Shown in pieces: positions 2,598 through 46,007 of a stretch of DNA of 46,717 bases. This stretch comes from a virus. The DNA lies in the IMG/VR virus record IMGVR_UViG_3300047552_000200, positions 1-46,717 of that record; one strand, 5' to 3'. Each line of letters starts with the position of its first letter. Within the stretch, counting starts at the first letter, position 1. A program made the position numbers and the translations under genes. The notes under the pieces are model-generated. The model was not told where the DNA came from. It saw only the letters and a list, made by a program, of their open reading frames with translations, and made no database searches.

Positions 2598-3078
2598 AAA
2601 ACCTGACACTTTAATACAGAGTATCCAACATATAAGAATGGGGCTAGGTCTACCCATCTATAGGACACAATTTGGCCCTAAGCCTCCTGTAGGGTACGTG
2701 TTCAAAGATAATAAGCAAAAGATATTAATCCCGGACATAAGATTATTGAGGTTGCTTAGAAAAGCCTATGAACTCAAAGATGAAGGCTGCTCCTTAGAAG
2801 ATATCTGTAAGTGGATATATATTAATTCTAAGAAACGTATATCCGAGCCATTATTTTCCAGGTTGTATCATAATAGGCCCATATTCAAAGAAATAGAGTT
2901 ACCACTCCGTGAGCGACAAAGACTTTACAAAACCGCCCAAGCCAAAGCAGACGAAGAAAAAGGTCTCTACAAAGACTACCAAGAAGAGGCTGACGAAGAC
3001 ACAGATCTCGATCCAGGAATTCAAGGCGAAGAAGGCGCGGGACAAGGAACTCAAAACTTTATCGCAGAAGGCATCTAG
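2575..3078 (+). CDS. DNA-binding protein resembling a serine-recombinase 'Recombinase' domain, overlapping terL
   Basis: This 167-residue protein lies between TerS and TerL. Residues ~35-105 follow the pattern of the DNA-binding 'Recombinase' domain of large serine recombinases: a Pro-Pro-x-Gly-Tyr start, a hydrophobic helix, Glu-Gly-Cys-Ser-Leu-Glu-Asp-Ile, then a Leu-Tyr-His-Asn-Arg-Pro end. The catalytic resolvase domain is absent, so it is not a recombinase; a role as a packaging or DNA-binding accessory protein is inference. The C-terminal ~45 residues are very acidic and overlap the start of terL by 170 bp in another frame. It overlaps the end of terS by 23 bp. The domain similarity was read by eye and is moderate. 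Confidence 0.6.
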   Translation: MSSAKKRKKPDTLIQSIQHIRMGLGLPIYRTQFGPKPPVGYVFKDNKQKILIPDIRLLRLLRKAYELKDEGCSLEDICKWIYINSKKRISEPLFSRLYHNRPIFKEIELPLRERQRLYKTAQAKADEEKGLYKDYQEEADEDTDLDPGIQGEEGAGQGTQNFIAEGI

Positions 3079-5392
3079 TGGCTTAGAAGATGCTGCCCTA
3101 GTTAAGACTCTTGATGAATCTGTACCTGAAGATGCAAGAGCCGAGATAGGCAGTAGAAAGGTTCTCTGGGAGCCACAATATAATCCTACCACAGGGCGAT
3201 CTCTCCAGAAAGAATTCTTAGAAGCTACCGAAGATGAAGTACTCTACGCAGGTGGTCGTGCCTCCGGTAAATCTTCTGCTCTCTTAGTTGATCCTCTTAG
3301 ATACGTCCATAATCGCAATTTCCGCGGTTTGATTGTCCGTAAAACTATGCCAGAGTTGGCAGAACTTATTGGCAGAGCGAAGATTCTTTACAATGATGCT
3401 TTCCCAGGTGTCCAATGGCGTACCCAGGAAAAGATCTTTAGATTCCCATCTGGGGCAAGAATAGAATTCGGTTACTGCGATACTAAAGATGACGTGGAGC
3501 GCTATCGTGGTCAGGAGTATTGCGTAGGCGTAGACACTCCTATACAGATGCTTAATGGCTCAGCCAAAAGAATAGTCGACATAGTAATAGGTGATTATGT
3601 CTCTACTTTGGAAGGCCCTAAGCGAGTAACTGATATTATTAAACCTTATATGGCCCCTTGTGTTAGGCTTCAAGGTGAGGGCGTTGATCAAATAATGCCA
3701 GTGTGGCACCCCGTTTTAACCTCTTTGGGCTGGCAGTCTTACACATCAATTCTGGGTACCGATTCCACAGAGTTTGAAGAGACATATTTAGAAGGTTCAC
3801 AGCCTCCTTCCGTGGATTGTTTTGTAAAACGTGCAGTATCTGTTCCTCTGATGGTCGTACAGGCAAATGTTTCCATAGAATTCCCTGACGTTTACAAGCA
3901 TGTTGAATCGTTGATGGACTGCAAGTTAAGAGCTTTCCAGCTTGTTGCAGAGACACAGATGAATCCTCAGCCAGTTTCCGTAAATTCTCTACCCAAGTTT
4001 CATCTGCGTCCTTACGTCTATGATGATGAGCTTCTGAGAGGTGAGTGCCATGATCCTTTATCACTTCAAGATTCTCTAAAAGATTATTCTGCTTATTTCC
4101 GTCCTTATGATGTACTATCTCTCTATTCACAAGATAATAACCTAGATGTACTTCCATTATCAGACGATGCTGTAACACGTAGCCTCTTTTATCTCTACTC
4201 TGATGTTCTGGGCAATATTCCTGAATGTAACCATCAGATCGAACATGGCTACCTGCATCCTTACGACGAACTGGAACGGAAGACGGTGTGGGAAAGTTCT
4301 TTAGTGGCATGTAAGATGTCCTATGTTGGATATAAGTTAGTCGCGGATATTACCGTAGATTCGGCTAATCATTATATAACATATAACCAAGGAATAGTCA
4401 ATAAGAATTCCTGGTTGGGTATTGACGAATTAACCATGTTCCCCACAGAGGAAATATATAATGCTCTTAGATCATCTGTACGTTCTACTGATCCTGAGTT
4501 ACGTGCATATACCCGCGCTACCTCTAACCCTTATGGTGTAGGTTTTAACTGGGTTAAGAAGAGATTTATCTCCTTAGGTCCAGAAGGTCAAACTATTAAT
4601 GTCAGCATAGACACACCTATAGGTAAAAGAACTACCACAAGAAAATGGTTCCAATCTAACTACCAGGATAATCCGCTTGTTAAAGAAGAATATATTTCCT
4701 ACCTTGCTTCTCTCCCTGAGAAAATGCGTAAGCGCTGGCTTGAAGGGTCTTGGGATGGTGGTGATGGAGCTGCATTCCCAGATTTTGAACGCTCTATTCA
4801 CGTTATTAAACCCTTTAACATACCCGGTAATTGGCCCCGCTTTCGTGCGATTGACTACGGTTATACAACAATGGGTGTGTGTCTTTGGTTTGCGGTAGAT
4901 CCCGAAGATTGTCTGTATATCTATCGAGAATTAAAAACCACGCTGGTCACGGCGGATGAATTTGCCAAAATGGTACTCAAAGCTGAAAAAGGTGAGTATA
5001 TAAGCTATGGGGTTATAGATGGCTCTATTGGAGCGAATAGAGGAACCACAGATCCTACCTTAGATGAGATTATGAGAAAAGAAGGCTTAATTTGCCGCTA
5101 CTCTGATCGCTCTGCTGGGTCTAGGATGGCTGGGAAAAATCTCATGCACCAATATCTAGCTGAGGATCATAATCTTAAACGCCCTAGGTTACAGATATTT
5201 GATTGCTGTGAAGAATTAATAGACGAACTCAGCTCCCTTCCATCTGGGGAACTTAACCCGGATGATGTACAGAAAAAAGGAGTCGTAGACCATGCCTGGG
5301 ATGCTTGCCGCTATGGCATACTCTCGCGGCCTAAATTCTCCTCTGGTTTTACTTACGAACCTCCTCCTACCCACGATCACTACTTCTTCTAA
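2909..5392 (+). CDS. terL: Large terminase subunit (TerL) containing an intein
   Basis: TerL is the ATP-driven motor and nuclease that packages DNA into proheads. The 827-residue precursor has Walker A Gly-Gly-Arg-Ala-Ser-Gly-Lys-Ser-Ser near residues 114-122. The Walker B motif Trp-Leu-Gly-Ile-Asp-Glu directly follows an intein at residues 205-500. The nuclease domain shows the expected acidic sites: Arg-Ala-Ile-Asp-Tyr-Gly, Val-Ile-Asp-Gly and Val-Asp-His-Ala-Trp-Asp. Intein removal would leave a normal 531-residue TerL. The only usable start before Walker A is a GTG at 2909 with a weak ribosome site, inside the upstream gene. The first ~55 residues are lysine-rich, opposite in charge to the overlapping peptide. 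A +1 frameshift from the upstream frame is an alternative start mechanism. Confidence 0.93.
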   Translation: MSDKDFTKPPKPKQTKKKVSTKTTKKRLTKTQISIQEFKAKKARDKELKTLSQKASSGLEDAALVKTLDESVPEDARAEIGSRKVLWEPQYNPTTGRSLQKEFLEATEDEVLYAGGRASGKSSALLVDPLRYVHNRNFRGLIVRKTMPELAELIGRAKILYNDAFPGVQWRTQEKIFRFPSGARIEFGYCDTKDDVERYRGQEYCVGVDTPIQMLNGSAKRIVDIVIGDYVSTLEGPKRVTDIIKPYMAPCVRLQGEGVDQIMPVWHPVLTSLGWQSYTSILGTDSTEFEETYLEGSQPPSVDCFVKRAVSVPLMVVQANVSIEFPDVYKHVESLMDCKLRAFQLVAETQMNPQPVSVNSLPKFHLRPYVYDDELLRGECHDPLSLQDSLKDYSAYFRPYDVLSLYSQDNNLDVLPLSDDAVTRSLFYLYSDVLGNIPECNHQIEHGYLHPYDELERKTVWESSLVACKMSYVGYKLVADITVDSANHYITYNQGIVNKNSWLGIDELTMFPTEEIYNALRSSVRSTDPELRAYTRATSNPYGVGFNWVKKRFISLGPEGQTINVSIDTPIGKRTTTRKWFQSNYQDNPLVKEEYISYLASLPEKMRKRWLEGSWDGGDGAAFPDFERSIHVIKPFNIPGNWPRFRAIDYGYTTMGVCLWFAVDPEDCLYIYRELKTTLVTADEFAKMVLKAEKGEYISYGVIDGSIGANRGTTDPTLDEIMRKEGLICRYSDRSAGSRMAGKNLMHQYLAEDHNLKRPRLQIFDCCEELIDELSSLPSGELNPDDVQKKGVVDHAWDACRYGILSRPKFSSGFTYEPPPTHDHYFF
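3663..4310 (-). CDS. HNH homing endonuclease encoded antisense inside the terL intein
   Basis: This 215-residue protein lies on the strand opposite the intein. Residues ~25-95 match the phage HNH homing-endonuclease pattern: Asp-Gly-Tyr-Ile, Gly-Tyr-Val-Leu-Gln-His-Arg (His48), Glu-Ile-Val-His-His-Lys-Asp-Gly-Asn-Lys (His67-His68), Asn-Asn...Glu-Asn-Leu-Glu-Val, then Thr-His-Leu-Ser-Glu-Ala-His. Two helix-turn-helix-like segments follow (~118-141 and ~155-185), as expected for DNA-recognition modules of such enzymes. The ATG has an AGGA site 8 nt upstream (4319-4322) and a promoter-like sequence further upstream. All recognisable catalytic residues are present and the frame is uninterrupted, so it is probably active. 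It likely cuts intein-less terL alleles to drive homing; that is inference. Confidence 0.88.
   Translation of the reverse strand: MPLKNFPTPSSVPVRRKDAGSHVRSDGYIQEYCPEHQSRDKRGYVLQHRLIMEVHLGYYLVNREIVHHKDGNKQNNLLENLEVIKDHGTHLSEAHHHRRKDADETWVENLRKLAEDSSVSLQQAGKLLTCSPSTIQHACKRQGILWKHLPVRPSEEQILHVLQNNPRKEAVNLLNMSLQTLWNRYPELMCKTASPKRLKRGATLALFDQRPHLEA
4319..4322 (-). promoter_or_regulatory. Shine-Dalgarno site of the antisense HNH gene
   Basis: AGGA on the minus strand, 8 nt upstream of the ATG at 4310-4308. The spacing is good and decides this start. It lies in sense-strand codons just before intein block F. Confidence 0.6.
4371..4401 (-). promoter_or_regulatory. Putative sigma70 promoter for the antisense HNH gene
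   Basis: Read on the minus strand, TTGACT (4396-4401) is followed after 19 nt by TATAAT (4371-4376). The -35 matches consensus at five of six positions and the -10 is perfect, but the 19-nt spacer is longer than the optimal 17. A shifted TATATA at 17 nt is also possible. Transcription would start near 4364, giving a ~54-nt leader to the HNH ATG. The element lies wholly within codons for intein blocks F and G, so it is constrained by splicing function too. Confidence 0.55.
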
Positions 5393-30437: not shown

Positions 30438-30508
30438 TGCTGTGGCCTTGAATCGAACAAGGAACTAAACTTTACAAGAGTCTTATTATACCATTTAACT
30501 AACACAGC
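30438..30508 (-). tRNA. tRNA-Thr (TGT anticodon)
   Basis: Minus-strand cloverleaf: acceptor GCTGTGT with CCACAGC (one unpaired position), D arm GTTA/TAAT, anticodon stem AGACT/AGTTT with loop CTTGTAA (anticodon TGT), and T arm CCTTG-TTCGATT-CAAGG. The 3' end is followed by TCA, not CCA, so CCA would have to be added by host enzyme. It starts one base after the tRNA-Leu 3' end. Confidence 0.8.
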
Positions 30509-30509
30509 T

Positions 30510-30586
30510 TGGTGGGACTACTCAGACTTGCACTGAGAGCTTACAGATTTTAAGTCTGTTGTGTTTACTAATTTCACCATAGTCCC
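30510..30586 (-). tRNA. tRNA-Leu (TAA anticodon)
   Basis: Acceptor GGGACTA/TAGTCCC, D arm GTG/CAC, anticodon stem ACAGA/TCTGT with loop CTTAAAA (anticodon TAA), T arm CTCAG-TGCAAGT-CTGAG, discriminator A and encoded CCA (total 77 nt). Unusually for a leucine tRNA, the variable region is short (AAGCT). Identity is from anticodon only, so charging identity is an open point. Confidence 0.82.
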
Positions 30587-30593
30587 TTTGCAT

Positions 30594-30672
30594 TGGTGGG
30601 CATGGGGTGAGTCGAACACCCATTGATCCATTTACGGTGCTACGGTGTAGAAGACCGTTCCGATACATGCCC
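30594..30672 (-). tRNA. tRNA-Arg (TCT anticodon), irregular fold
   Basis: Acceptor GGGCATG/CATGCCC with discriminator A and encoded CCA. The anticodon stem ACGGT/ACCGT has loop CTTCTAC (anticodon TCT), and the T arm is GGGTG-TTCGACT-CACCC. Only about seven bases (TATCGGA) lie between acceptor and anticodon stem, so the D arm looks almost absent, and the region between anticodon and T stem is long (~19 nt). It may be a degenerate tRNA or fold differently from my reading. Confidence 0.65.
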
Positions 30673-30680
30673 TTGTTATC

Positions 30681-30756
30681 TGGTATCCCAGGAAGGAATT
30701 GAACCTTCGACCAATCGTATATAAGACGACCACTCTCACCACTGAGTTACTGGGAT
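30681..30756 (-). tRNA. tRNA-Ile (TAT anticodon)
   Basis: A complete 76-nt cloverleaf with encoded CCA: acceptor ATCCCAG/CTGGGAT, D arm ACTC/GAGT, anticodon stem GTCGT/ACGAT with loop CTTATAT (anticodon TAT, reading AUA), and T arm GAAGG-TTCAATT-CCTTC. AUA, read by this tRNA, and AGA, read by the neighbouring tRNA-Arg, appear common in this phage's genes; the match is inference. Confidence 0.88.
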
Positions 30757-30758
30757 AT

Positions 30759-30845
30759 TGGTGGCATAGGTAAGGACTTGCACCTACGATGTTTCTGATG
30801 TCACGGTGTTACAGACCGCTTCCTTCGCTACTTGGATACTATGCC
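30759..30845 (-). tRNA. tRNA-Tyr (GTA anticodon), overlapped by an HNH gene
   Basis: Acceptor GGCATAG/CTATGCC, D stem TCC/GGA, anticodon stem GCGGT/ACCGT with loop CTGTAAC (anticodon GTA), a long variable region as expected for bacterial tRNA-Tyr, discriminator A and encoded CCA. The T stem (GTAGG with CCTTAC) seems to have one bulged T. The 5' 62 nt also encode the last 20 codons and stop of the HNH protein at 30784-31221. Confidence 0.75.
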
Positions 30846-31221
30846 TCTTTTTAATTCGCCAGGTTTTTACATACTCTCTCCTAGATTCAGAACAAATATA
30901 GCAGCGGCAACCCTTTCTATACAAAGAACTGCCATGATCAAGATGCTTCTTAGATTCTTCTCTTGTTTTATTTATATGACAAGATTTGCAAAGAAGTTGA
31001 CACTTAGATAATTCTATATTTAATTCACGGCTCTTACCATTTGCTATAAGATTAGATATAGAGTCTACTTTAGTTGTCCTATCTACGTGATCAAATTCTA
31101 AACTGCTTTTACTACCACAGTTAGCACAGCAAGCTTGAAATACCTCTTCACAAAGTATTCTCAGTCGTTTTCTGTAGTCTTTTTGATAGTCTCTGCGTTG
31201 TTCTTTAGTATATTTACCCAT
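30784..31221 (-). CDS. Free-standing HNH endonuclease running into tRNA-Tyr
   Basis: This 145-residue protein has a zinc-type HNH core: Cys-Ala-Asn-Cys (32-35), Phe-Asp-His (His45), and Cys-Lys-Ser-Cys-His-Ile-Asn-Lys (78-85). A second Cys cluster, Gly-Cys-Arg-Cys-Tyr-Ile-Cys (104-110), occurs after a His-Gly-Ser-Ser-Leu-Tyr motif common in phage HNH proteins. The last 20 codons lie inside tRNA-Tyr and are probably not needed for catalysis. It is likely a homing-type nuclease targeting the tRNA region; the overlap with a tRNA gene resembles insertion next to a conserved site. It starts 5 nt after the small lipoprotein stop. Confidence 0.85.
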   Translation of the reverse strand: MGKYTKEQRRDYQKDYRKRLRILCEEVFQACCANCGSKSSLEFDHVDRTTKVDSISNLIANGKSRELNIELSKCQLLCKSCHINKTREESKKHLDHGSSLYRKGCRCYICSESRREYVKTWRIKKRHSIQVAKEAVCNTVTSETS

Positions 31222-31226
31222 AAACT

Positions 31227-31313
31227 CTATTGCAGTGATTTAAACACATCAAAGGTGGCGCTGCAAGCAGAGAGAAGAATAGCGGCGTTAGCAAGAATAA
31301 AATATTTAATCAT
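31227..31313 (-). CDS. Tiny lipoprotein (28 aa)
   Basis: A 28-codon frame starts at an ATG with AAGGA 8 nt upstream. It encodes a signal peptide (Met-Ile-Lys-Tyr then a hydrophobic core) ending in the lipobox Leu-Ser-Ala-Cys at Cys17, leaving a mature lipid-anchored peptide of only 12 residues. It lies far from the lysis cassette and just upstream of the HNH gene. By analogy with small phage lipoproteins that block receptors it may act in superinfection exclusion. That is inference. Confidence 0.6.
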   Translation of the reverse strand: MIKYFILANAAILLSACSATFDVFKSLQ

Positions 31314-31336: not shown

Positions 31337-31861
31337 TTAGTTTTGACCTTTGTGGTCATCTTTGATAGTCTTCTTGTAGTAATGCCCAGAGTGAGTATGG
31401 AAGATGATAATACCTTCAGCTTCAACTTCTGGGTTAAACATAGAACCATATTCTGCCAGATCTGTCAAGGCTTCATTTATAGCAGTCTCAGAAAAAATAC
31501 CTTCATAGAGAATTGGAACTACGTCACAGCATTCTGGGCGAGAGTCTTTCCACCTGTAGGTATTAAACAGAGCAAAATGTTTCTTAGATAGACCATAACC
31601 ACGCTGGATACCTTTACCAAACCATTCACCGTAATGGTATCCTGGGCCAAGTTCTCTAAGTTCCTCCTGGTTAGTCTCTACCCATTTAGCAAAGCCATAG
31701 TTATCATCCTCTGGGGTGATCCAACGATTACGACTACCGGCCCGGACAATACCATCTTCAGCTACATGAACTAACCCATTGGTGCCATCGATTTTCTCAC
31801 TGATCACTATGCTTCTGGAAAGTCTAGGTATTTTAGCAAAGGCGGGGTATTTATCAGTCAT
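31337..31861 (-). CDS. RNA ligase, Rnl2-like nucleotidyltransferase domain
   Basis: This 174-residue protein shows the nucleotidyltransferase motifs in order: motif I Glu-Lys-Ile-Asp-Gly-Thr-Asn (Lys23 as the adenylated lysine), Gly-Ser-Arg-Asn-Arg-Trp, Tyr-Gly-Glu-Trp-Phe-Gly (motif III), Ala-Glu-Gly-Ile-Ile-Ile-Phe (motif IV) and Tyr-Lys-Lys-Thr-Ile-Lys (motif V). It is small, essentially the catalytic core alone. It would seal RNA ends using ATP. It starts next to the nucleotidyltransferase-like gene cluster and complements the Rnl1-type ligase at 41298. Confidence 0.8.
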   Translation of the reverse strand: MTDKYPAFAKIPRLSRSIVISEKIDGTNGLVHVAEDGIVRAGSRNRWITPEDDNYGFAKWVETNQEELRELGPGYHYGEWFGKGIQRGYGLSKKHFALFNTYRWKDSRPECCDVVPILYEGIFSETAINEALTDLAEYGSMFNPEVEAEGIIIFHTHSGHYYKKTIKDDHKGQN

Positions 31862-36415: not shown

Positions 36416-36895
36416 TCAAGCAGCTTTCTCAGAGAAATTACATACAGTGACATTAATATCCTCGTTATTGAAGATAACTTCCAGCAAAGGTTTTACCTCA
36501 GTATCCCAATCTAAGCCACCATGACCACAGCCAATACGGGGAAGGTAGATATCCTTTACACCCCATTCAAATGCACGCAGCATCACAAACAACATAGATT
36601 TAGCAATAGCACCGAGAGAAGCATAACGAGCACCATCACAGCCATAGTTTTCCTGGGTGAAAGCATTGCATACAACCAAAGGTTTATCTTCGGTCATATC
36701 AACAGCTACAAAGTTAACAGAACCCAGAGTACGTACACTATCAGGTACTTTGAGATATTCTTCTTTCACTACTGGCCATTTTTCAAGGATAGCTTTTGCT
36801 ACGCCAGAACCCATAGTCTTTTGACAGTTTACACCTTGGACGATAATGGCTGGGCCTTCGACTGTGGTGATATCTTTGGTAATTTCTTTAATCAT
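36416..36895 (-). CDS. Macro-domain protein
   Basis: This 159-residue protein shows the macro-domain ADP-ribose site: Val-Gln-Gly-Val-Asn-Cys (Asn23), Met-Gly-Ser-Gly-Val-Ala (28-33), and Leu-Pro-Arg-Ile-Gly-Cys-Gly-His-Gly-Gly-Leu-Asp-Trp near residues 118-130. This closely resembles single-domain macrodomains that bind or hydrolyse ADP-ribosyl groups or ADP-ribose-1''-phosphate. It may counter host ADP-ribosylation defence or process by-products of RNA repair. Both roles are inference. It overlaps the MazG-like gene by 4 bp. Confidence 0.85.
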   Translation of the reverse strand: MIKEITKDITTVEGPAIIVQGVNCQKTMGSGVAKAILEKWPVVKEEYLKVPDSVRTLGSVNFVAVDMTEDKPLVVCNAFTQENYGCDGARYASLGAIAKSMLFVMLRAFEWGVKDIYLPRIGCGHGGLDWDTEVKPLLEVIFNNEDINVTVCNFSEKAA

Positions 36896-39689: not shown

Positions 39690-40220
39690 TCAGGTATCTA
39701 AATACAGCACAGGTTTAATTTCATCGAAGCCTTCGGCCAAACTAGGTCTAACAAACGTAGCTTGCAAGTCTTCCAGAAGTCTCTTTGTGATAATCTTCCC
39801 CGATTTATTTCTTACTTCCAAGCGTTTCTCTATGACATTTATAGGGGTATCGAAGTACACAGCTATTTTCTTATACCCTGGGTGAGCAACTAAGTCAAGT
39901 TTTCTTTTCCTAGATTTAGGACTAAGATTAGTTTGATCCAAACAAAGATTATTCTTACCGGGATAGCTGTGCAGATATAGCTCATTGTCTACGATCTTTT
40001 GGGCCGGGCCAATAATATCTTTGAAAATATCATTGTAGGTTTTCCCCAGACTAACAGCCATATCTTCAATAATACTATCTGTAGATAGATAAACTGAGTT
40101 GGCCCCTAGGTTCTGCATAGCCCAGGTTGTCTTACCTGAGCCTGGAAGCCCCACCAGCATATAAAAGATAGGCAACCTAGCTAGTTTTTCTTTCCCTTTA
40201 AGTCTCTGTACCTTAGGCAT
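39690..40220 (-). CDS. Polynucleotide 5'-kinase domain
   Basis: This 176-residue protein starts at 40220, chosen for GGAG 7 nt upstream; the frame opens earlier without such a site. It has the P-loop Gly-Leu-Pro-Gly-Ser-Gly-Lys-Thr-Thr (24-32), Leu-Ser-Thr-Asp-Ser, and Leu-Asp-Gln-Thr-Asn-Leu, as in T4 Pnkp kinase domains. It would phosphorylate RNA or DNA 5'-OH ends. Unlike T4 Pnkp, the 3'-phosphatase is a separate gene (40853-41311). It overlaps the SpeD-like gene. Confidence 0.83.
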   Translation of the reverse strand: MPKVQRLKGKEKLARLPIFYMLVGLPGSGKTTWAMQNLGANSVYLSTDSIIEDMAVSLGKTYNDIFKDIIGPAQKIVDNELYLHSYPGKNNLCLDQTNLSPKSRKRKLDLVAHPGYKKIAVYFDTPINVIEKRLEVRNKSGKIITKRLLEDLQATFVRPSLAEGFDEIKPVLYLDT

Positions 40221-40608
40221 TGTAAGTCTCCAAGAAAATAACTCGTGGCATTTCTCCACGATCAATGAAATAATAGTCTGCTTTCGTTACTCCTAGATCT
40301 TCTAGGAAGGTAAATACTTGCTCAGGAGTAAAATCAGAGCAGCTATACAAATCAAACATCACACTGTGAGGACTAAACTCATCCCAGGTATGGATAGTAG
40401 TATGAGAAGTTTCCAATATGGCTACTCCTGTATAGCCTGTATTACCTTTGTCTGTACAATAATAGGCCATAGGGTTGCCTGGGACCTCGGCCAAGTCCAT
40501 GTTTACAGCTTTGATTATGTTTTTAAGCCATGCCTTTACAGCTTCTATACTGTCAAAAGAAGAATTAACATAGGCTTTTACAATAAGGTGTTTATGCGTA
40601 GTTATCAT
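40213..40608 (-). CDS. SpeD-like (AdoMet decarboxylase family) pyruvoyl enzyme
   Basis: This 131-residue protein contains Glu-Thr-Ser-His-Thr-Thr-Ile-His-Thr-Trp-Asp-Glu, matching the prokaryotic SpeD processing region: Ser68 (cleavage and pyruvoyl formation), His73 and Cys90. Cys90 lies 22 residues after Ser68, two more than in Thermotoga SpeD, and the residue before Ser is Thr rather than the usual Glu. Some SpeD relatives decarboxylate ornithine or arginine instead of AdoMet, so the substrate is uncertain. It sits between RNA-repair genes in the operon. Confidence 0.78.
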   Translation of the reverse strand: MITTHKHLIVKAYVNSSFDSIEAVKAWLKNIIKAVNMDLAEVPGNPMAYYCTDKGNTGYTGVAILETSHTTIHTWDEFSPHSVMFDLYSCSDFTPEQVFTFLEDLGVTKADYYFIDRGEMPRVIFLETYNA

Positions 40609-40853: not shown

Positions 40854-41311
40854 TAGAATTCCTCTTCATGTTGCAGTACGTTAAAAGTAAACAATCCCTT
40901 TGTTCTCCAAGCTCTTAGAACTTTTGGGCGGTCGTCGAAGATTCCTACAATGACATTATCTTTTGTAATCTCTTCAAGCATCTCAGTTTTAACTATACCA
41001 TCATCACGGTAGTCCTTAGACTTACGCATAATGAGTTGATCTGGGTAAACAAGATTATCATGGAGCCATTGCTCTGTGATCTCTCGTTTGTCTTCTTCTC
41101 TGCCTGTGGTGCAGATAATCTTAAATCCAGCTACCTTCAAAGCAGTAAAAACTTTGGCTACAGGAAGAATCAAAGTATCCTTTTCCATGTTTTGATTGTA
41201 TGCTGCCCAGTTCTTAGGCTTAGTCTTAACCCACTGCTGCCTATGGTTGTTGTTAGCTAACGTGCCGTCCACATCGAAGAGGAATGCCTCAGGTTTCTTA
41301 TTTGCTTTCAT
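40853..41311 (-). CDS. Polynucleotide 3'-phosphatase (HAD family)
   Basis: This 152-residue protein starts at 41311 with AAGGA upstream. Its Phe-Asp-Val-Asp-Gly-Thr-Leu (Asp13, Asp15) is the HAD catalytic motif, followed by Cys-Thr-Thr-Gly-Arg, and Ile-Phe-Asp-Asp-Arg-Pro-Lys-Val as the metal-binding motif. The middle Asn-Trp-Ala-Ala-Tyr-Asn and Lys-Asp-Tyr-Arg fit the 3'-phosphatase half of T4 Pnkp. It would remove 3' or 2',3'-cyclic phosphates from cut RNA. It overlaps the Rnl1-type ligase gene by 14 bp. Confidence 0.83.
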   Translation of the reverse strand: MKANKKPEAFLFDVDGTLANNNHRQQWVKTKPKNWAAYNQNMEKDTLILPVAKVFTALKVAGFKIICTTGREEDKREITEQWLHDNLVYPDQLIMRKSKDYRDDGIVKTEMLEEITKDNVIVGIFDDRPKVLRAWRTKGLFTFNVLQHEEEF

Positions 41312-42473
41312 CTGTGTTTCCTTCTTTATATTTAACAAAATTCATAAGCCAACGACTAGCATTTAATTTAGTACCAGACCCGCAGGACTTTATTAAGGTA
41401 TTGGTTATCTCTTCCATTATATCTTTGTTATCATATAGCTTAAACATAAATGGGCTAATTAAAGGCCCAAGTTTTACAGCTTCTTCAGCAAATTCCTTTC
41501 TCTGTAGTTTAGTCTGGGAAAGATTAACTATAAGATGATATTTAGTTAGTAGGAACTCCGCTACCGTAGCAATGCCCTTAGTTACCTCTTTCTCATAAGC
41601 CTCAACATCTCTAAGATCATGCTCAGGCAAAGTAGGTTTAATATCATCCAAGGCATTTGTCAAGATACATTTTAGTAAATTCTTTTCCTGGGAGACAAAT
41701 TCCTTAGTTTTATGCAGGAGAACATACCAATCAGACTTAACTTTAACACGATGACCTGAGTTGAACACAATGACATAGCCCTCTTGACCTTCTAGCTTTT
41801 TAGTATGATCGGCTACGTCTTGCATATATCTAAAGTCACTAGCTCTAACAACTGGTATGCCCAAAGAATGCCCATACTCATAGATATCAGCCTTAGAAAG
41901 ATAAATACCAGATTTTGTATCTCGTATAGCCAACAGAACTAAGTTATCCTCTGAGTAGTCTAACACAATACGCTGCTTCCTTGAGCACCACTCAAAAATA
42001 GGAGTATATCCGTTCTTATGACATAGCTCCATAAATATTTCGTAATTAGGATAGCGCACAATGAACTGCTCTGCTTGCATAGCCACATCTGTAATACCCA
42101 TACGAGTACCTAGGCGCATACCCGAGGGCAGGAACAAAGGCCGAATCATAGATCCGTCTAATTTCTCATAAGCAGTAAATTTTTCCCAGGTCTCTGCCCA
42201 AATAAGGCGAGTTTCAGGACGTTCCTCTAGGTTAAAAAACTTATGAAAAGGCCGGGATATAATTTTCCCAGACTTACTATCAAAGGCTATGCCACGGCAC
42301 TCTCTTAGAATAGCATCTTCTTTGGTATCTACCTCTGGAAACACCTCAGGAGAAGCCAGGAGATAGTTAATCACAGTATACTCACCTTTGTCAGCAATAA
42401 CAAAGGCGGGATTGTCCTTGACTAAGGGAGTTACCTGAGAGATATGTTCAATGTACGGGAATTCATAGTTCAT
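41298..42473 (-). CDS. RNA ligase 1 (T4 Rnl1-like)
   Basis: This 391-residue protein is close to T4 RnlA in size. It has motif I Tyr-Glu-Lys-Leu-Asp-Gly-Ser-Met (Lys104), preceded by Arg-Glu-Cys-Arg-Gly-Ile-Ala-Phe. It also has Ile-Phe-Glu-Trp-Cys-Ser (motif III), Glu-Gly-Tyr-Val-Ile-Val (motif IV), and Val-Lys-Val-Lys-Ser-Asp-Trp-Tyr (motif V). The C-terminal ~130 residues form the tRNA-specificity helices. AAGGA precedes the ATG. Together with the adjacent phosphatase and kinase it forms an RNA-repair set expected to rejoin tRNAs cut by host anticodon nucleases; that role is by analogy with T4. Confidence 0.92.
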   Translation of the reverse strand: MNYEFPYIEHISQVTPLVKDNPAFVIADKGEYTVINYLLASPEVFPEVDTKEDAILRECRGIAFDSKSGKIISRPFHKFFNLEERPETRLIWAETWEKFTAYEKLDGSMIRPLFLPSGMRLGTRMGITDVAMQAEQFIVRYPNYEIFMELCHKNGYTPIFEWCSRKQRIVLDYSEDNLVLLAIRDTKSGIYLSKADIYEYGHSLGIPVVRASDFRYMQDVADHTKKLEGQEGYVIVFNSGHRVKVKSDWYVLLHKTKEFVSQEKNLLKCILTNALDDIKPTLPEHDLRDVEAYEKEVTKGIATVAEFLLTKYHLIVNLSQTKLQRKEFAEEAVKLGPLISPFMFKLYDNKDIMEEITNTLIKSCGSGTKLNASRWLMNFVKYKEGNTDESK

Positions 42474-43538: not shown

Positions 43539-43788
43539 CGTAGCCTACCACCTTAGTAAAGTCAAGAAATTTAACAGGAGTCAAAGGAGTAAAATAGTAT
43601 CCCATAGACCAACTATCACCATCATCAGAAAACCAGCCCCGCTCGCCTTGGAACTCGTCATCATCATCAAATTCACCTATGTTATAATCTTGTTTCCATG
43701 AACCTAAACTTACATACCCTTCAGCACTCTGTAGCAGATACAAAGTACCATCTTTCTTTGCTTCTTCTATGTTTAGCCAAGTTGTCAT
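43531..43788 (-). CDS. Hypothetical acidic phage protein
   Basis: This 85-residue protein has Trp-Leu-Asn-Ile-Glu-Glu-Ala-Lys-Lys-Asp-Gly at its start and Gly-Trp-Phe-Ser-Asp-Asp-Gly-Asp-Ser-Trp later. The layout recalls small DUF551-like phage proteins of unknown function, but the match is loose. Its start overlaps the end of the helicase gene by 4 bp. Confidence 0.6.
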   Translation of the reverse strand: MTTWLNIEEAKKDGTLYLLQSAEGYVSLGSWKQDYNIGEFDDDDEFQGERGWFSDDGDSWSMGYYFTPLTPVKFLDFTKVVGYDG

Positions 43789-46007
43789 TGAGTAATCCTT
43801 GAAATTGGTGAATCTAACATGAAGCTAACATTTCCATGCCAACCTGTCAACTTGTTTTTACAGATATTTGCAACTCTGAACCCATTATCTTCTCCTTGTG
43901 ATGTAGCAAAGCCCTGCTTACCTATAGTGATAATCAGATCTGTCTCTGCGGCCTTGCCTGTCTTAGATCCTTCTAACATATCAAAGCCATAGTAAAGTTT
44001 ACCCTCAGCATCAGCACTAGCCTGAGATACACCTATAATAGCACAGTTATATTTCTTAGAGATCTCCCTGGCCTGAGTATACAAAGCTCGCAGCTCTTCA
44101 TGCCCAGAGTTGTACTTACCTGCCGTTCTAACTTTATCCAATTGATCTATGATAACAATATCCGGTCTGTGTTTAGCAATCCACTTCTCCATTTTATCCG
44201 TGGACATACCAACTACGTCTAAGACATAAACATTATTCTTAATCTCAGCATATTTTTGTATAACCCCTTCTTTCTTGTCTTCCCAGTCACTTTCAGGAAT
44301 CCCAGAATAGCAGCACATACCACGCTTCTTAGTCCTAAATGCCTGTTCTTCGTTACCAAAGTAGGCCACCTTAGCCCCTTGCTTAGCCCAACCCTCAGGA
44401 TGGAACACCAAAGATACAACAAAAGCGGTTTTACCACAGTTTCCTGAGATAGCTACTTGGCCGTTTCTACGGATGATGATATACCCAGTAGGCACAGTTA
44501 CACAATGAACAGTACCTTCATAGTCTACCCATTCTCTTTTCAAAGGTTTAGCATCAACATAGTCTCTATTTTTTAGAATATGTAAGGTGTTAATAGGATT
44601 ATGATGAGGTTCTTTTAGTTTCTTCTGCATAGAGTATGTAGTTTTGTACCCAGCCATAGTAGACAATGCCTGTACTACGTCTGTATTAATTTTTACTACA
44701 CTATCATACTTAATTCTATGTTCTGATCTCCTGGAAGCATCCCAATAAGACAGCTCTTCAATAAACTCTTCTGCCCAGACCCTATTACTATTAGCTATAT
44801 CTACCCAGCTAAAATCTTTCCTTATGGTGTTATGATACATATCTGTAGGTATTTTAACATAGAATGTACTAAACCCAGGACGAGTAGCTTCCTGCTTTTC
44901 TTCCCAGAGAAATGTTAAATTATTAAGTATGTTTATTAGACGTGCTTTTTTATCCTCCCTCTTGAGAGTGAACCTAACAGATAATGTCCCACAGCGTTTT
45001 CCTGTGCTGTTGGGATTATGTGACGCAGAGCCATCCGCTTGGTATGCAATAAGAAAACGATCCAACCAAGTTAATCCATCTCCACCTAAGGCATAAGGCT
45101 TAACTTGGATATGTCTGTGTAAACTAGAGAAAGTAGCATCCTCAGCCTTTACTTTGAACATGGTGCCATTCGTATGCTCAAAGGCTAAGTCATGATTCTT
45201 AGTAACAAGATAGTTTACACCACGCACATTAGAGTAAACGTGGAGTAGCTGCTCTTTGACATAATAGCCTACTACATCTAAGGGGTTAGTAAAGTCCCAT
45301 GTTTTAGTAATAGGATTGACTTGGGCCACCATGTCTAGCTTAGTGACATCTTTAATTAGCTTAAAGCCAGTAGTAGTAAGAATCTCCGTATCAGAAGAAA
45401 AACACTCTGGACGAGCAGCAATAAGACCAAAAATACCTGGGCCTACACCATTGATCTTATCTTTAAGGTTATCCAGGCAGAACTTCCACCTAAAAGCGTG
45501 TTCACTAAGAGCCATAAGCTCATCAATATCATCTGTAACGGGCAGAAGATCATCTTCATCAGATGAATACTCACCTTTGACACGAGCTACCAAGTTCTCA
45601 AGCAAGCCAAAGTCCCTATGATGGCCATCAGCCATGTTCAGAGCTTCATTAGCTAACTTAGTTACATTGAGTTTTAGCTTCTCATTCCTAAGAATAGCTT
45701 CTGCGGCCTCTTGACCAATCTCTATATTGCCAAGATTCTCAAAGACAATATTCAAGTTACTACGCTCAGTGTTGGTAATAGCAGGATAGCGGCTAAGATG
45801 ATACTGCCTCAGATCCTTAGCTGTTATACCGGATATAGCTATACTTTCATCTGAGATAAATTTGGGTTGTATCTGAGAATCCCAGTATTCTTGTAAACTA
45901 AGATAAATCTTTCTGATATCTGAGGGAAAGAATTCTGGATCTAGGTTGGCTTTATTCTTAGAATAGAATTCATAGTTGAGGCAATGTTTTAATAGTTCCA
46001 AGGACAT
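43785..46007 (-). CDS. DnaB-like replicative helicase containing an intein
   Basis: This RecA-fold helicase unwinds DNA ahead of the polymerase. The 740-residue precursor carries an intein at residues 202-523; splicing would give 418 residues. Joined exteins read Ala-Arg-Pro-Glu-Cys-Gly-Lys-Thr, a DnaB-type Walker A with Glu for the usual Gly. Further motifs are Lys-His-Arg-Pro-Asp-Ile-Val-Ile-Ile-Asp-Gln-Leu-Asp (Walker B) and Val-Ser-Gln-Ala-Ser (sensor-like). The N-terminal ~150 residues are helical, without primase motifs, so the primase may be elsewhere. It is encoded just after a small zinc-ribbon protein. Confidence 0.92.
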   Translation of the reverse strand: MSLELLKHCLNYEFYSKNKANLDPEFFPSDIRKIYLSLQEYWDSQIQPKFISDESIAISGITAKDLRQYHLSRYPAITNTERSNLNIVFENLGNIEIGQEAAEAILRNEKLKLNVTKLANEALNMADGHHRDFGLLENLVARVKGEYSSDEDDLLPVTDDIDELMALSEHAFRWKFCLDNLKDKINGVGPGIFGLIAARPECFSSDTEILTTTGFKLIKDVTKLDMVAQVNPITKTWDFTNPLDVVGYYVKEQLLHVYSNVRGVNYLVTKNHDLAFEHTNGTMFKVKAEDATFSSLHRHIQVKPYALGGDGLTWLDRFLIAYQADGSASHNPNSTGKRCGTLSVRFTLKREDKKARLINILNNLTFLWEEKQEATRPGFSTFYVKIPTDMYHNTIRKDFSWVDIANSNRVWAEEFIEELSYWDASRRSEHRIKYDSVVKINTDVVQALSTMAGYKTTYSMQKKLKEPHHNPINTLHILKNRDYVDAKPLKREWVDYEGTVHCVTVPTGYIIIRRNGQVAISGNCGKTAFVVSLVFHPEGWAKQGAKVAYFGNEEQAFRTKKRGMCCYSGIPESDWEDKKEGVIQKYAEIKNNVYVLDVVGMSTDKMEKWIAKHRPDIVIIDQLDKVRTAGKYNSGHEELRALYTQAREISKKYNCAIIGVSQASADAEGKLYYGFDMLEGSKTGKAAETDLIITIGKQGFATSQGEDNGFRVANICKNKLTGWHGNVSFMLDSPISRITQ
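44439..45404 (-). other. Intein with LAGLIDADG endonuclease in the helicase gene
   Basis: This 322-residue intein runs from Cys (45402-45404) to Asn (44439-44441), with Cys as +1 residue. Block A is Cys-Phe-Ser-Ser-Asp-Thr-Glu-Ile-Leu; block B includes Val-Thr-Lys-Asn-His-Asp-Leu. The C-terminal end reads Ala-Ile-Ser-Gly-Asn, with Gly as the penultimate residue. The endonuclease has Leu-Asp-Arg-Phe-Leu-Ile-Ala-Tyr-Gln-Ala-Asp-Gly (first LAGLIDADG helix) and Phe-Ile-Glu-Glu-Leu-Ser-Tyr-Trp-Asp-Ala (second), each with its catalytic Asp. It splits the ATP-binding P-loop, so helicase activity requires splicing. Confidence 0.92.

Follow-up and report, generated by a model that had tools for sequence, protein, structure and literature searches.

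A stand-alone HNH endonuclease gene ending inside tRNA-Tyr of a viral contig, and its relatives at phage tRNA genes: a probable family of homing endonucleases

The stretch of DNA analyzed here (the window) comprised the 46,717 nt of IMG/VR record IMGVR_UViG_3300047552_000200, a 46.7-kb viral contig. The HNH endonuclease ORF under study stood at the head of a tRNA array formed, in this order, by tRNA-Tyr, tRNA-Ile, a tRNA-like gene with a TCT triplet, tRNA-Leu, and tRNA-Thr (Table 1). The ORF and tRNA-Tyr were on the same strand and overlapped by exactly 62 bp, with the stop codon inside the tRNA, as a preliminary description of the sequence had claimed. tRNA-Tyr was missed by ARAGORN at default settings and was called by Rfam, with a score exceeding the gathering score of 29; it presented a long variable arm, and its minimum-energy fold was cloverleaf-like, with acceptor, D, anticodon, and T arms, and was no better than the folds of shuffled sequences. 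The HNH frame was the longest-running of the three frames through tRNA-Tyr, reaching position 62, the two alternative frames meeting stops at tRNA positions 7 and 18. The length of the overlap was unremarkable for the family, in which values ranged mostly from 2 to 86 nt, with a few longer ones and a median of 18.5 nt.

Table 1. Coordinates of the HNH gene, the tRNA array, and adjoining features in the window.
Feature	Position	Strand	Basis or remarks
HNH endonuclease ORF	30784..31221	-	145 aa, ATG start, TAG stop
HNH (PF01844) core, residues 32-87	30961..31128	-	Pfam match
tRNA-Tyr, anticodon GTA, 84 nt	30762..30845	-	Rfam RF00005, 40.3 bits
Overlap, 62 bp: end of HNH ORF = tRNA-Tyr positions 1-62	30784..30845	-	
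HNH TAG stop, within the T-stem 5' strand of tRNA-Tyr	30784..30786	-	
tRNA-Ile (TAT), array neighbor after tRNA-Tyr	30681..30756	-	ARAGORN
tRNA-like gene, anticodon-like TCT, without ordinary D-arm	30597..30672	-	Rfam 38.9 bits; fold z -2.5
tRNA-Leu (TAA)	30510..30586	-	ARAGORN
tRNA-Thr (TGT)	30438..30508	-	ARAGORN
Lipoprotein-like ORF, 28 codons, ends 5 nt before HNH start	31227..31313	-	
RNA ligase (PF09414) preceding the array, shown for context	31337..31861	-	

The window HNH was a stand-alone ORF, outside any intron or intein, and no intron family was detected by Rfam at gathering thresholds in the window or in the nine relatives searched. Its sole Pfam match was HNH PF01844 (E = 8.7e-5, above the cut-off), the GIY-YIG domain being absent, and it also matched the HNH endonuclease family phrog_4234 (E = 8.5e-24; residues 3-127 of 145, profile positions 3-126 of 130). 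Since these matches end at residues 87 and 127, respectively, the HNH core was complete ahead of the overlap, in agreement with the preliminary description. The catalytic and zinc-binding residues (C32, C35, D44, H45, C78, and H82) were invariant in 34 relatives, and a Cys-rich C-terminal motif (C105, C107, and C110), corresponding to conserved columns of the family, also preceded the tRNA. In the AlphaFold model of the protein (mean pLDDT of 88) the residues encoded within the tRNA formed a long C-terminal helix, which is no proof of function. A sequence search of the PDB gave no match and Foldseek gave no confident one, the best hit (E = 0.26) being an HNH endonuclease of phage T5.

Homologues were found by tblastn against phage records in mycobacteriophages of clusters C, L, and M, as well as in phages of Streptomyces, Stenotrophomonas, Xanthomonas, and others; tRNAs lay beneath or beside these matches, and across unrelated phages the tRNAs adjoining homologues were of nearly every isotype. 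The closest relative of the window HNH displayed about 40% identity. As a single-protein scan of viral contigs recovered no relative, a 14-member profile was used, and this yielded hundreds of viral relatives. Only 20 relatives were present in the bacterial and archaeal genomes of 84,980 species, which indicated that the family is essentially viral, and none appeared in the plasmids searched.

For the survey of tRNA adjacency, up to 80 loci were kept per profile scan of viral contigs; the sample comprised 224 clusters at 75% identity, 172 of them in loci with tRNAs on the plus strand, and was compared with the remaining ORFs of those loci that had a minimum length of 100 aa (n = 562). The HNH ended between -95 and +11 nt from the start of a same-strand tRNA in 106 of the 172 clusters (62%), in contrast with 109 of the 562 other ORFs (19%; Fisher P = 1e-24), and overlapped a tRNA in 79 of 172 (46%) vs. 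69 of 562 (12%; P = 2e-19). About half of the family clusters were not flush with a complete tRNA. The conserved core of the protein ended upstream of the tRNA, at a median distance of 11 nt from its start; the frame continued into the tRNA in 80 of the 115 tRNA-adjacent relatives and stopped before it in the other 35. The coding frame often had no stop of its own and terminated at a stop inside the adjoining tRNA, commonly at positions 8-10, 13-15, 20-22, or 36-38; the overlap lengths peaked at 10, 15, 23, and 39 nt, lengths at which in-phase stops can arise from conserved tRNA bases. Family stops fell earlier in the tRNA than those of random frames, with a weak preference for position 10 (20 observed vs. 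12.3 expected from random frames; P = 0.009). On the HNH tree the isotype of the tRNA changed 71 times, as compared to a mean of 88 and a minimum of 82 after shuffling, thus reflecting that lineages partly keep their isotype, yet switch often. The frequency of isoacceptor pairs flanking the HNH (20/71 vs. 153/813) did not differ significantly (P = 0.06).

Between close phages the HNH gene was present or absent, with the insertion placed at or in a tRNA gene. Thus, tRNA-Thr(TGT) was intact in Enterobacter phage ENT1 and in a prophage of E. coli MLI104K1, whereas in E. coli L6-21 and in viral contigs L355, L348, and L343 an HNH ORF lay inside its anticodon loop, with the junction at anticodon bases 35/36 and the stop codon TAA of the HNH made of U36-A37-A38. 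The E. coli prophage HNH has the accession WP_001568783.1. The RefSeq annotation of the L6-21 prophage includes the HNH gene and omits the interrupted tRNA-Thr; interrupted prophage tRNAs probably go unnoticed.

Empty alleles in Menderavirus (Moby, YB07, Marzo, and Bhz51) had tRNA-Lys and tRNA-Arg separated by the 3 nt AAT, whereas in the occupied alleles (Mendera and Yut2) the HNH filled this spacer and ended at a TAA of the tRNA-Arg anticodon loop. Both tRNAs were intact, and the tRNA-Arg of Mendera and Yut2 was identical to that of the empty alleles over the overlapped part; the tRNA being untouched by the insertion, cutting inside it is not needed at this site. Two other genes were found inserted just 5' of a tRNA in the Mendera relatives Marzo and Stenotrophomonas phage Bhz51: an unannotated ORF, nuclease-like by eye, which reads into tRNA-His, and an annotated GIY-YIG endonuclease gene, which ends 5 nt before tRNA-Cys.

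In cluster C mycobacteriophages a broken 5' tRNA stub preceded the HNH, and a full tRNA of matching isotype followed it. tRNA-Gly, intact in Flabslab and NoodleTree, was replaced in Shaqnato, Cane17, and Pinkcreek by the truncated 5' part of the resident tRNA-Gly, the HNH, and a complete tRNA-Gly of divergent sequence that shared 45 bp with the HNH; the divergence between the new and the resident tRNA-Gly is consistent with a putative nuclease-resistant rescue copy. The same pattern of 5' part, HNH, and full tRNA occurred in NoodleTree at tRNA-Thr(GGT), a site that carried a different HNH in Flabslab and decayed remnants in Shaqnato and Cane17. The coexistence of two HNH subtypes and decayed copies at this one site may be read as in a homing cycle. 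Shaqnato at tRNA-Thr(GGT) and SlimJimmy at tRNA-Glu were rejected as empty alleles because a decayed HNH was present in each of them. The tRNA-Asp that follows the Gly site in Pinkcreek (L008 compared with L009 and L010) differed mainly in the anticodon stem, CCCGCCTGTCGAGCGGG vs. CCGGTCTGTCGAATCGG, a change compatible with local conversion or with selection on that arm.

Further layouts were read by eye from the sequence. Viral contigs L224, L390, and L210 each had a tRNA-Pro broken at the anticodon loop; its halves were separated by the HNH and by a sequence resembling tRNA-Pro, which Rfam called in L390. In Quaran19 a tRNA 5' half stood just before the HNH and the 3' half just after it, and in Navo a full tRNA-Lys(CTT) was followed by a small HNH and then by a tRNA 3' half, in which the stop TAA again coincided with positions 36-38. 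At the anticodon-loop insertions of relatives, the nuclease often had a further tRNA next to it, intact and of the same isotype. Insertion at or in tRNA genes was recurrent in the family and was accompanied by borrowed stops, by intact tRNAs beside broken ones of the same isotype, and by decay.

Broken tRNAs upstream of the HNH were sought by scoring against a library of tRNA 5' halves, which worked only for high-scoring stubs; a stub search with nhmmer was dropped as too insensitive. Stub-like upstream sequences with scores of at least 17 were obtained for 26 of 283 HNHs, 14 of 283 other ORFs, and 0 of 283 reversed sequences. When only stubs scoring at least 16.5 were considered, a threshold picked after the scores were seen, the isotype of the upstream 5' stub coincided with that of the downstream tRNA in 11 of 17 HNHs (permutation mean of 1.5; 0 of 200,000 shuffles). 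Weaker-scoring stubs gave no isotype agreement, lower scores representing noise, and the test for similarity within each locus between the upstream sequence and the tRNA downstream gave a null result when all loci were taken together. Among the 159 HNHs that had no complete tRNA close by, 13 carried a tRNA 3' half immediately behind the stop, vs. 6 of 1883 other ORFs; about half of these 13 belonged to one related prophage group, so that they represent fewer events than the count. In the window itself, the HNH was linked to an intact tRNA-Tyr; no broken target tRNA was seen there, and the stub search revealed no tRNA 5' stub upstream of the HNH (P = 0.65).

The preliminary description had proposed that the tRNA gene was used as a target of insertion or as a stop. 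Both uses were borne out in the relatives, the former by the empty and occupied pairs at tRNA-Thr, tRNA-Arg, and tRNA-Gly, and the latter by the frames that end at stops within the adjoining tRNA. Insertion beside the tRNA, as suggested there, was the case for the spacer site at tRNA-Arg; in other relatives, however, insertion had taken place inside the tRNA, at the anticodon loop. Relatives at a fixed distance away from any tRNA were looked for, and the claim was not refuted. The proposed comparison with phages lacking the HNH located the insertion point in the relatives at the three tRNAs mentioned, but gave no empty allele for the window; the neighboring RNA ligase led to 61 contigs that were mostly without tRNAs at that place, and therefore no empty allele was obtained by this route.

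We consider it probable that the window gene is a free-standing HNH homing endonuclease whose family is widespread and nearly confined to viruses and has phage tRNA genes as its homing sites. For the window, this reading rests on homology and gene architecture, the insertion event itself not being seen. In co-infecting phages without the HNH, the putative enzyme would cut tRNA genes close to the anticodon, and repair would copy in the nuclease plus its flank, including the donor tRNA. Copies would persist where the phage retains, or receives together with the nuclease, an intact tRNA of the target isotype, in what may be a natural cut-and-rescue arrangement; in the window, tRNA-Tyr would be the flush intact tRNA and the 62-bp overlap would represent a borrowed stop codon. 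A wider proposal, which we put forward tentatively and regard as rather doubtful, is that natural cut-and-rescue drives constitute a widespread phage class whose target is the tRNA anticodon loop: each HNH would destroy the tRNA gene of a rival for one isotype, supply its own copy in the same step, borrow its stop, and be throttled by RNase P release, which would leave a non-stop message. If this were true, such drives would have contributed to the assembly and rearrangement of large phage tRNA arrays.

A generic phage HNH located upstream of a dense array could also have lost its stop by drift and read on to the nearest one, the tRNA not being a target at all. Other ORFs of these arrays do end at tRNA starts and overlap tRNAs, in the proportions given above and with peaks at the same stop positions (e.g., -10), and such an origin would also suit the Mendera tRNA, unchanged by the insertion, and the half of the family clusters that are not flush with a complete tRNA. 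It is nevertheless unlikely in view of the three- to fourfold enrichment, the split tRNAs, the matching stub isotypes, and the empty and occupied pairs at tRNA genes.

It seems improbable that the HNH cuts at some other, non-tRNA site and that the 5' edges of tRNAs are just a tolerated, harmless landing place, as this would leave unexplained the anticodon-loop insertions that destroy tRNA-Thr and the isotype agreement between stub and tRNA. Free-standing homing endonucleases can cut at some distance from the gene that encodes them (PMC13096335; PMC2988022), both tRNAs remain intact at the flush Menderavirus insertion, and the GIY-YIG gene and the other nuclease-like ORF of the same phages use similar sites, all of which would fit with a cut elsewhere.

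Very improbable is the tRNA as a switch, in which the cut of RNase P at the 5' end of tRNA-Tyr would remove the HNH stop and the non-stop message would limit the nuclease: the stop located 62 nt downstream of the mature 5' end, the overlap in 80 of 115 tRNA-adjacent relatives, and the stops earlier than in random frames agree with it, but long tails that merely do harm would likewise lead to a preference for early stops, and in 35 of the 115 the stop precedes the tRNA. The overlap is frequent without being universal, which makes this control unlikely as its general reason.

Group I intron-encoded HNH endonucleases occur in tRNA anticodon loops, and members of the present family were likewise inserted there. 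Unlike in those introns, little beyond the ORF was present between the tRNA halves in the two best-mapped split loci (the L355 group and Quaran19), which leaves no room for an intron ribozyme. SegF and SegG are intronless homing endonuclease genes, each linked to a copy of its target gene that resists cleavage. By analogy, the HNH gene adjoins its presumed target and the neighboring gene may be co-converted; in contrast with SegF and SegG, the presumed target of the HNH family is an RNA gene, hit at many isotypes, with the end of the ORF lying inside that gene.

SegB of phage T4 is described, in the available text of the sources, as a free-standing GIY-YIG homing endonuclease with its cut site in the tRNA region, which spreads with flanking tRNA genes (PMC2988022; PMC13096335; PMC6409571). 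The window HNH family shares with SegB the condition of a free-standing nuclease gene within a phage tRNA cluster and differs in the type of nuclease, HNH instead of GIY-YIG; borrowed tRNA stops, anticodon-loop insertion, and a stub with a same-isotype tRNA are not described for SegB in that text. HNH genes of mycobacteriophage tRNA arrays have been linked to the diversity of the tRNA repertoire and to the way in which tRNA clusters spread (PMC5966550; PMC6409571, citing Pope et al., 2014). These array HNHs (clusters C, L, and M) are direct homologues of the window HNH, and the portions of the published accounts at hand give for them no insertion point, overlap rule, split tRNAs, or isotype match. 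In ShiLan, there is an out-of-frame HNH insertion in a conserved methylase gene without any known self-splicing element, with the stop at the end of the insertion (PMC11855218); there, as in our family, a gene is interrupted without a known self-splicing element, but the interrupted gene is a methylase and not a tRNA. Within the literature text available, HNHs in tRNA arrays and SegB were already known, whereas no description was found of anticodon-loop insertion, borrowed stops, or isotype match, which would be new; Pope et al. (2014) and Brok-Volchanskaya et al. (2008) may add more.

A nuclease family placed flush with tRNA genes or within them, for almost any isotype, with matching broken stubs and same-isotype tRNAs alongside, provides a selfish and testable route for the gain, swap, and loss of tRNA genes. 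Why phages carry tRNA arrays is an old question, to which the usual answers are codon supply and evasion of tRNA-cutting defenses. The E. coli prophages and the Menderavirus alleles, empty vs. occupied and one gene apart, are ready-made targets.

Some other features of the window phage were observed. The tRNA-like gene with the TCT triplet had a counterpart in the Streptomyces phage Navo (L002, 2856-2931, plus strand), with an anticodon-like TCG and also without an ordinary D-arm; both genes were 76 nt long, aligned without gaps, and had in common TATC...AATGGAT..ATG, and in Navo an HNH stopped 1 nt ahead of the tRNA-like gene. The two may possibly represent an unusual type of tRNA. No match to this odd gene was obtained with a first pattern, nor with a related pattern scan of viral contigs. 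The window phage also encoded two RNA ligases (31337-31861 and 41298-42473), an AAA_33 protein, with a kinase-type P-loop (39690-40265), and a macro-domain protein (36416-36895), perhaps a tRNA repair set alongside the tRNA array. An HNH_3 ORF of 215 aa (3663-4310, minus strand; E = 5.6e-9) lay, on the opposite strand, within an intein-like insertion of the ORF of the terminase large subunit (2909-5392, plus strand); the HNH_3 nuclease and this insertion appear to be encoded antisense to each other. Finally, the ORF of a DnaB-like helicase (43785-46007, minus strand) contained an intein-like insertion which, as judged by eye, starts with CFSSDTEILTTTGF and ends near VAISGN.
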